Source: Salisaeta longa DSM 21114 (GTDB taxonomy: Bacteria > Bacteroidota > Rhodothermia > Rhodothermales > Salinibacteraceae). Taken from it: a stretch of DNA of 64,000 nt. The DNA lies in NCBI RefSeq assembly GCF_000419585.1, contig NZ_ATTH01000001.1, positions 1,820,005-1,884,004 of the forward strand, read 5' to 3'. A program made the translations under genes and the position numbers. This document shows positions 26,708-56,423 of this stretch, piece by piece. Position 1 is the first letter of the stretch; each line of letters begins with the position of its first letter. The notes beneath the pieces are model-generated. The model did not search any database, had not been told where the DNA came from, and saw nothing but the letters and a program-made list of their open reading frames with translations.

Positions 26708-26888
26708 GGTACCGCAATAGTTGATCGGGGGAATACACCGTCGATGCCGTATGAAGATTCAGCGGAAGCGGTTCCGCACGAGCATTGGTTAGAATGCAAC
26801 GTTACCGCGCCGGATCAACGACACGGGCAAATTGATCACAAAAAGCGTTCCATTGGTTTGCTTTTTCCTTCCTGATCGCCCGCCGTTC

Positions 26889-27905
26889 ATGCCTACGCCG
26901 CCTGCTGCACCCGTTGCCTTTGTTACCGGAGGCACCGGCTTCGTTGGGAGCCACCTTGTAGAAGCGCTCCTCGATCGCGGATTTACGGTGCGGGCGCTGG
27001 TACGCTCGCGGCGCAAATGGCTCGCGGGGCTCAATGTGGACGTGGTGCGCGGCGACCTCTCGGATGTAGAGGCCCTGTGGGAAGGCGTGCAGGGCGCCGA
27101 CTACGTGTTTCACCTGGCCGGGCGCACGCAGGCGCCCACCTACGCCGATTTTCACGCGGCCAACGTGACCGGCACCCTGAACCTCTTGGGCACCATTCGG
27201 CAGGCCGCGCCCGACGTGCAGCGCGTGCTGATTACAAGCAGCCTGGCCGCCGTGGGCCGCGGCACCAACGGCGTGGCGACCGAGGACACGCCCCTGGAGC
27301 CCGTAAGCCGCTACGGGCGCAGCAAAGCAGCCATGGAAGAGGCGCTACGCGATTCGCACGACCTGACGGCCTCGTACGCCGAGGCCCTCCCGCTCACCGT
27401 GGTGCGGCCGCCCGCCGTGTACGGCCCGCGCGACCGCGACATCCTGACGTTTTTCCAGGCCGTGCAAAAGGGCGTGTGCCCCGTCGTGGGCCGCGGCAGC
27501 ACACCCGCGCTCAGTCTGGTGTACGTCGACGACCTGGTGGACGGCATCATCCGGGCCACGCTGTCGGACGCGGCGGTAGACAACACCTACTTTCTGGGCA
27601 GCCCGGCCATCTACAGCTGGAACGACGTGAAGGAAGCCGCTACTGCGGCCCTCGACCGCTCCGCGCTCACCGTCCCCGTTCCGCCGCTGCTTGTGGGCGC
27701 CGTGGGGTGGCTGGCCGAGGGCTGGAGCCGCCTGACCGGCCAGTCGCTCGCCCTCGACCGCGAGAAGGCCCGCGAGATCCGCTACGCCTGCAAGCAGTGC
27801 TCCTCGGAAAAGGCCAAGCGCGCATTCAATTACGCCCCGGCGGTCGATATTGGTGAAGGCGTGCGCCGCACCATCGCCTGGTACACGGCCGAAGGCTGGC
27901 TGTAG
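26889..27905 (+). CDS. NAD(P)-dependent epimerase/dehydratase (extended SDR)
   Basis: The product has 338 residues from 26889; an earlier in-frame ATG would add a hydrophobic stretch not typical of the family. The cofactor motif is TGGTGFVGSH. RGDLSD and a Ser block (ITSSLAAVG) are present, and the catalytic YGRSK motif follows. The second half has VVRPPAVYGPRD and SLVYVDDLVDGI, as in nucleotide-sugar epimerases and related reductases. The substrate cannot be read from the sequence. Confidence 0.9.
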   Translation: MPTPPAAPVAFVTGGTGFVGSHLVEALLDRGFTVRALVRSRRKWLAGLNVDVVRGDLSDVEALWEGVQGADYVFHLAGRTQAPTYADFHAANVTGTLNLLGTIRQAAPDVQRVLITSSLAAVGRGTNGVATEDTPLEPVSRYGRSKAAMEEALRDSHDLTASYAEALPLTVVRPPAVYGPRDRDILTFFQAVQKGVCPVVGRGSTPALSLVYVDDLVDGIIRATLSDAAVDNTYFLGSPAIYSWNDVKEAATAALDRSALTVPVPPLLVGAVGWLAEGWSRLTGQSLALDREKAREIRYACKQCSSEKAKRAFNYAPAVDIGEGVRRTIAWYTAEGWL

Positions 27906-28014: not shown

Positions 28015-28560
28015 ATGCCTTTCGATTCGTCCACCCGCCGCCTTGCACGATTTGCCCTGAAGGGCCTGGCCGTCTATGCGCTGTGGTACGTTGTGTACGA
28101 TTTGTGGCTGCTGCCCGACGGGCGGCTCGACCGCTGGCTCTCTACCACGGTGGCCAGCCTGAGCGGCACGCTGCTTCAGCTTGTGGGCTTCGAGGCGATG
28201 GTGAGCGGGCGCACCCTCACGCTGCCCGGCGTGGTGGGCGTGCGCATCGTGAACGGCTGCAACGGGCTCACCACCATCGGACTGTTTATGGGCTTCGTGG
28301 TGGCGTATCCTGGCCGCTGGCGGCACCGGCTGTAGTTCATTCCGGCGGGCATCGGGCTCATCTTTGCGACCAACGTGGTGCGCGTGATGGTGATGCTGCT
28401 TGCGCAGCGCTACTGGCCGGCCGCCTTCGACCCGCTGCACGGCTTTGGCCTCACCACCATCTTTTACGTGGTGGTGTTTGCGCTGTGGGTGGCGTGGGTG
28501 CAGCTCTCCGATCGCGCCCCGCAACAGGCCCCGCAACGCACAGCCGTTCAGCCTGTATGA
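28015..28560 (+). pseudogene. Exosortase/archaeosortase-family gene interrupted by an in-frame amber codon
   Basis: Read through a single TAG at 28333-28335, this frame gives about 181 residues of an exosortase-family membrane protein (start at 28015, or 27979). The catalytic Cys lies in IVNGCNGLTTIG. The stop is in PGRWRHRL-stop-FIPAGIGLIFATNVVRVM, where relatives would be expected to have a Trp, so a TGG-to-TAG change is likely. The conserved Asn/Arg of the next helix (NVVRV) and a further helix follow intact. There is no frameshift. Exosortases process sorting-signal proteins at the inner membrane. It may be a fresh pseudogene, a sequencing error or a suppressed stop. Confidence 0.8.
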
Positions 28561-28641: not shown

Positions 28642-28714
<73 letters not shown>

Positions 28715-28719
28715 CCGCC

Positions 28720-55427: not shown

Positions 55428-56423
55428 TTAGCCCCGGACCCGAAGCAACTTCGTCACCGAGCCGCCGGTATGGATGGCCCGGATGGCATCGGCAAAGAGC
55501 GGGGCGGCATCGCACACCGTTAGCAGATCGCGGGCCGCGGTGTCCTGCAGGCGAAACGGCGGAATCGTGTTGGTCGTCCAGAGGGCGGCGATGGGTGCGG
55601 CCTGCAACGTCGCCGCCGCGGCGCCCACAAAGAGCCCGTGCGTGATGACCAAAATCACGCGTGCGGCGCCGGCCTCGGCCGCCGATTGAGCCGCCTGCGC
55701 GATCGTCCCGCCCGTGCTAATCAGGTCGTCGAGCACCAGCACCGTCGCCCCCGCCACGTCGCCCACCAGCGTGCCTCCACTGACGCCCTCTTCGCGGCGG
55801 ATTTTTTCCACAAACGCGGTTTGGATGTCACGGCCCAGCGCCGCGCGGAGGCCTTCCGCAAAGCGCGCCGCACGCTTCACGCCCCCCTCGTCGGGCGACA
55901 GCACCACCAGGCGTTCCTCGTCGCTTAACGTGTGGGCGGCGTGCTGCACAAACAGCGGGCGCGCCTCCAGGTGATCGGTGCCCACGCGAAAGGCATTTTG
56001 AAAGGCCGCCAGATTGTGTACGTCCATGGTCACCACACGATCGGCCCCCACGGCTTCCAGCATGGCCGCAATGTAGCGCGTGGATACCGGATCGCGGGGA
56101 CGCGTCTTGCGATCTTTGCGGGCGTAGCACAGGTATGGGATGAGCACGGTGATGCGCCGCGCGTCGGCATCTTCAAGCGCTCCAATAAACAGAAGGAGGC
56201 GCGTTAGCTTCTCGCTGATGCTGTACCGCGGCCCGCCGTGTAGCGACTGCACCACAAAGACGTCGCGGCCGCGCACGTTGACCAGCGACCGCAGCAGGTG
56301 CTCGCCATCGGTAAACGTTTGCTCCTCGTGGTCGTCGAGCGACCGGTTCATGGCCGCCGCGACGCGCGCGCCAAAATCGTGGGTTTCGGAAAGAGCGAAG
56401 AGGCGCAGGTCGGGGGCAGGCAT
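55428..56423 (-). CDS. prs: Ribose-phosphate pyrophosphokinase (PRPP synthetase)
   Basis: The product has 331 residues. Two PRTase-like halves are seen: GRDVFVVQSL, ITVLIPYLCYARKDRKTRPRDPVSTRYIA, VVTMDVHN for ATP/ribose-5-phosphate binding, and the PRPP loop VLVLDDLISTGGTI. The divergent C-terminus suggests a specialised homologue rather than certain main Prs. It is downstream of fabF (54 bp) on the same strand. Confidence 0.87.
   Translation of the reverse strand: MPAPDLRLFALSETHDFGARVAAAMNRSLDDHEEQTFTDGEHLLRSLVNVRGRDVFVVQSLHGGPRYSISEKLTRLLLFIGALEDADARRITVLIPYLCYARKDRKTRPRDPVSTRYIAAMLEAVGADRVVTMDVHNLAAFQNAFRVGTDHLEARPLFVQHAAHTLSDEERLVVLSPDEGGVKRAARFAEGLRAALGRDIQTAFVEKIRREEGVSGGTLVGDVAGATVLVLDDLISTGGTIAQAAQSAAEAGAARVILVITHGLFVGAAAATLQAAPIAALWTTNTIPPFRLQDTAARDLLTVCDAAPLFADAIRAIHTGGSVTKLLRVRG

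Follow-up and report, generated by a model that had tools for sequence, protein, structure and literature searches.

An in-frame amber codon in the single exosortase X gene of Salisaeta longa DSM 21114, probably a young nonsense allele

The window, the whole stretch of 64,000 nucleotides analysed here, corresponds to C1:1820005-1884004 of the Salisaeta longa DSM 21114 genome (3.40 Mb, 3 contigs, 98.5% complete). It contains an exosortase X gene, xrtX, with one TAG codon inside its reading frame. The gene and its immediate surroundings are arranged as follows.

26832..27905, plus strand: upstream neighbour gene of xrtX, itself ending in TAG; we take it to be NAD-dependent epimerase-like
28015..28560, plus strand: xrtX, exosortase X gene, an interrupted frame of 181 codons and a TGA, matching NF046081 over residues 8-166
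28015..28335, plus strand: translated part if TAG stops, 106 residues; Cys82 is kept, whereas Arg123, His142 and the final two hydrophobic segments are lost
28258..28260, plus strand: Cys82 codon (NGCNGL), invariant in 39/39 sampled relatives
28333..28335, plus strand: in-frame TAG, codon 107 of 181, in frame with the ATG at 28015 and the TGA at 28558
28336..28560, plus strand: part 3' of the stop, 74 codons, codon score 26.6, with 13 of 14 conserved columns kept
28381..28383, plus strand: Arg123 codon (NVVRV), invariant in 39/39 sampled relatives
28438..28440, plus strand: His142 codon (DPLHGFG), invariant in 39/39 sampled relatives
28642..28716, plus strand: tRNA-Ala (GGC), directly downstream of xrtX with no partner gene between

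The initial annotation had described a single amber codon within an otherwise intact exosortase-family gene, flanked by a conserved Cys (NGCNGL) and a conserved Arg (NVVRV). This description holds: the frame is whole on both sides of the stop, the genome scan reports one match with '1 TAG', and the two residues lie at 28258-28260 and 28381-28383. When the window was scanned for codon usage, with 21 long frames as the training set, the two halves of xrtX each scored as coding (31.5 for 28051-28308 and 26.6 for 28336-28530), and GC3 is alike on either side of the TAG (0.85 before, 0.82 after). The scan found six same-frame neighbour pairs split by one stop in the window, xrtX among them; the other five were judged from length to be separate genes. 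A chance in-frame pairing of unrelated halves is not a serious explanation for xrtX, as both halves align to one 168-position family. A promoter scan found none.

The read-through product matches the exosortase X model NF046081 (exosort_XrtX) with 196.4 bits over residues 8-166 (cut-off 170, E 3e-58); the genome scan with the same model gave 193.4 bits for the gene. Pfam PF09721 (Exosortase_EpsH, E 7.6e-16) and the superfamily signature TIGR04178 (63.2 bits, cut-off 23) also match, and the next-best NCBIfam family, XrtF, reaches 83.8 bits, under its cut-off of 90. The best XrtX relatives share about 58-68% of residues with the product. It was aligned with 39 relatives, a sample of the XrtX matches found in the genome searches, from which duplicates (L062, identical to L008; L076, identical to the window gene; L014-L016, equal to L005, L004 and L007), a fragment (L013) and a distant sequence (L018) had been left out; the genus sample is the window's own genome (n=1). 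Among 39 positions conserved in at least 90% of these relatives, the window protein departs at one, Tyr117 being replaced by Phe. The superfamily Cys, Arg and His are all kept (C82, R123 and H142), the Arg and His after the stop. The frame of the window gene, however, is interrupted by the TAG at 28333-28335. Judged from its sequence, the gene is most likely an XrtX-family allele that is not functional.

XrtX would be a small polytopic membrane enzyme whose expected task is to cut exported proteins with a PID-CTERM signal at the C terminus and to hand them on, with a small membrane protein as its probable partner. A simple hydropathy scan shows about five hydrophobic peaks in XrtX, two of them beyond the TAG. 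Translation would stop at codon 107, immediately short of the hydrophobic segment in which the catalytic Arg lies, and the His follows still later; with these two residues lost, the 106-residue product could not do the chemistry, and two PID-CTERM proteins would be left unprocessed. The view of the initial annotation that sorting, if the TAG is real, is lost unless the codon is read through is supported.

Searches of the strain's own genome with PF09721, with NF046081 and with the protein returned one exosortase match each. The idea that xrtX is made redundant by another intact exosortase is rejected, the window match being the only one in the genome. Across 244 genomes of the class, 93 XrtX matches were found in 89 genomes, weak and partial ones included. 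In-frame stops occur in two of the 93, the window gene and a weak fragment in G069, a genome of the same class and another family; the window xrtX is the only long match with a stop. A search of viral contigs found no relative. G069 carries weak XrtX fragments at C13:46553-46780 and C20:3244-3342; one contains one TGA and two TAA, and there is no PID-CTERM match in that genome. The G069 remnant and the window xrtX are thus both XrtX matches with in-frame stops, but the former consists of two weak fragments without PID-CTERM and gives the impression of an XrtX system lost longer ago, whereas the latter appears to be a young break with its substrates kept.

These putative substrates were sought with NF046080, which we at first assumed to be the model of the XrtX-linked signal and then put to the test. 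Two PID-CTERM proteins exceed the cut-off of 26 bits in the strain's genome, one of 126 aa (38.6 bits) and one of 117 aa (27.7 bits). Both are intact, with the full VPVDGG motif, a hydrophobic stretch and AAYAAR, and their N termini are hydrophobic as judged by eye. Proteins with the cognate sorting signal had been proposed as a check on the initial annotation, and these two are probably cognate. PID-CTERM occurs in 86 of the 244 class genomes (E 0.001): 68 genomes have XrtX and PID-CTERM, 21 XrtX only, 18 PID-CTERM only and 137 neither, an association with a Fisher p of 6e-25 that ignores kinship and includes many incomplete genomes. This co-occurrence suggests that PID-CTERM proteins are the substrates of XrtX. 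PID-CTERM was absent from the open-licence literature searched, which is not proof of its absence in print.

A membrane protein of ~155 residues is encoded directly 3' of xrtX in seven genomes of the window's own family, and a membrane gene of similar size, belonging to a separate similarity cluster, lies 3' of xrtX at 12 loci in other families of the class. One protein of each cluster, compared with NCBIfam, gave no match above cut-off. A model was made of the first of these proteins, the partner; 7 of the 9 proteins that match it had contributed to it, those of the window's genome and G036 not. Searched against 41 genomes, it gave strong matches (E <= 1e-24) in nine, and all nine also have XrtX and PID-CTERM over cut-off. 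The partner lies within ~310 bases of xrtX in eight of the nine; the exception is the window's genome, in which it is intact but located 869 kb from xrtX, next to a presumably phosphofructokinase-like gene.

C1:2717829-2718272 (L166:1498-1962), minus strand: the strain's own partner gene, whose product is a small membrane protein (154 residues) homologous to that of the gene 3' of relatives' xrtX

Among the 41 genomes, XrtX is found without a partner in G007 (no PID-CTERM), in G019, where a contig ends at xrtX, and in G014 (a fragment, in a genome 56% complete). On this pattern the small membrane protein could be a third part of the sorting machinery, and it may well work with XrtX. The window xrtX thus differs from its counterparts in eight of the nine partner-bearing genomes in not having the partner adjacent. 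This missing neighbour was considered as proof of decay and rejected, since an intact partner gene is present at another place in the genome; several relatives in the class are also without it beside xrtX. The four genes flanking the window xrtX gave no match beside relatives' xrtX, and in the stretches of relatives that were examined xrtX does not adjoin the upstream epimerase-like gene. Conversely, the neighbours of relatives' xrtX, compared with the window, matched only at xrtX and at 55455-56315. Exosortase genes usually sit beside polysaccharide export genes; at five loci of relatives (L003, L006, L008, L010 and L017) xrtX adjoins genes that by eye resemble Wza/Wzc-type polysaccharide export genes, but the window xrtX has no such neighbours.

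The initial annotation expected a Trp at the site of the stop. Position 107 is variable in the family, the 39 relatives having Ser in 15, Leu in 11, Trp in 8, Phe in 2, and Ile, Ala and Tyr in one each, so that Trp cannot be called a family-wide expectation; it is, however, the commonest residue in the nearest rows. A tree of 40 rows places the window xrtX in a clade of 12, in which one gene comes from a different family of the order and the rest from the window's own, and Trp is present in 7 of the 11 companions, encoded by TGG in all seven. Support for the fork that links the window xrtX with the rows of its own family is 93/76, and this fork is drawn open. Because of these seven TGG codons, the TAG is most simply explained as a changed Trp codon, though this history is not certain.

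TAG behaves as a working stop in this genome, since it terminates 17 of the 47 coding segments in the window and release factor 1 (prfA) is present (494 bits, cut-off 423). A recoding of TAG is ruled out on the same two grounds. A suppressor tRNA, which the initial annotation had suggested looking for, did not turn up: none of the 45 tRNA matches in the genome (ARAGORN) has the anticodon CTA, and TTA and TCA are also missing. Neither tRNA-Ile(GAT) nor tRNA-Ala(TGC), the two tRNAs that ribosomal RNA operons usually contain, is among the 45 matches; the assembly may therefore lack stretches, possibly including a ribosomal RNA operon, and the search for a suppressor may have gaps. The same search showed three tRNA-Leu(CAA) on one strand at C1:1532776, 1534108 and 1535694 (L152, L153 and L155), ~1.3-1.6 kb apart. 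They are near-identical apart from their 3' ends, and the third has a low score (43 bits); the arrangement looks like the outcome of repeated duplication or of multiple use of an attachment site.

The stop in mid-gene, with probable targets and partner intact, makes it look as if sorting had been shut down recently, unless the base was misread. In a neutral-decay simulation with random, unconstrained substitution of xrtX, a gene with no additional stop and no more than one departure remained in 5% of runs when divergence was 5% per site, and in 0.4% at 8%. Since simulated decay rarely leaves the gene so clean, either the break is young relative to the divergence of the relatives or there is no break. 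We infer that the base is real and the enzyme dead, and consider it probable that the genome's single XrtX gene is a young nonsense allele whose enzyme has been lost. Some of the evidence points the other way. A wrong base in the assembly would give the same picture, and the youth of the break and the intact companions are equally expected if readthrough keeps the enzyme working.

The main rival is accordingly a wrong base: the TAG would be a single-base assembly error, or a mutation fixed only in the sequenced culture, and XrtX would work in the organism. The intact PID-CTERM proteins and partner fit this explanation, as does the isolated nature of the substitution, with no second lesion and a single departing position among the 39 conserved ones. 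Against it, the assembly looks clean, with few contigs and high completeness, and a coarse control in the strain's own genome found stops in 0/38 ABC-transporter and 0/32 response-regulator matches (0/70 together). In most assemblies, moreover, a lone wrong base is a less frequent error than an indel, and single-nonsense pseudogenes are common in bacterial genomes. An erroneous or culture-specific base is on balance unlikely, while keeping an appreciable share of the probability.

A clearly smaller share falls to readthrough, in which a near-cognate tRNA reads the TAG often enough to produce a small amount of full-length XrtX, little being needed. The absence of decay beyond the stop, the alike coding statistics of the two halves and the retention of substrates and partner would suit such a mechanism, and since position 107 tolerates seven different residues almost any inserted residue might do. 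However, the genome provides release factor 1 and no tRNA match with a CTA anticodon, TAG is an ordinary stop here, and the T that follows it makes a strong termination context in E. coli. None of the 39 relatives has a stop at position 107, so there is no sign of a conserved readthrough site. We regard readthrough as improbable. Less probable still is its extension to a three-part surface-sorting system of which the literature searched has no description, made up of XrtX, the membrane partner unnamed in NCBIfam and PID-CTERM, with the enzyme level set by a leaky amber codon. The least credible proposal is a split but working gene, whose first 106 residues would assemble with an internally started second piece: in-frame GTG/ATG codons do occur at 121-127, those at 121 and 122 preceding Arg123, but a restart at either of these loses most of the hydrophobic segment 111-130, and a split gene is found in none of the 39 sampled relatives, stops among the other class matches (93 in all) being confined to the decayed G069 fragment.

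The preferred reading, a young nonsense allele, gives the locus its wider use. A lone broken enzyme with its probable targets kept is a natural knockout, and surface differences between this strain and an intact relative would directly reveal the role of XrtX and whether PID-CTERM proteins depend on it. The recurring small membrane gene beside xrtX in turn provides a named candidate for a third component. No title on XrtX was among the matches listed for exosortase X or XrtX in the open-licence literature, which does not prove that none exists, and no test of the role of XrtX or of PID-CTERM dependence turned up in the literature searched.

Related enzymes offer points of comparison. Archaeosortase A of Haloferax volcanii, for which Cys173, Arg214 and Arg253 are described as critical, shares with XrtX the superfamily TIGR04178 and a chemistry of Cys, Arg and a basic residue (PMC9263693). 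The third residue is Arg253 in archaeosortase A and probably His142 in XrtX, and the sorting signals differ. By this correspondence, the counterparts of Arg214 and Arg253 would lie beyond the stop in the window xrtX. XrtF, the second-best family for the window product, likewise pairs an enzyme (Fjoh_1448) with an adjacent system-associated gene (Fjoh_1449), and deletion of either in Flavobacterium johnsoniae is reported to have left 'much less' biofilm and abolished zorbs (PMC10936215). A passage on exosortases in PMC12188702 also concerns XrtF. Because deletions of this related enzyme and its neighbour reduced biofilm, an envelope or attachment defect might be the expected effect of XrtX loss; the window product nevertheless scores under the XrtF cut-off, and the substrates of XrtF are given as not known in PMC10936215. 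The closest match remains exosortase X itself (NF046081), which covers nearly the whole length of the window gene with the catalytic Cys, Arg and His kept and from which that gene differs by one internal stop codon. A nonsense allele of this sort is an ordinary kind of event, here in a little-studied system.
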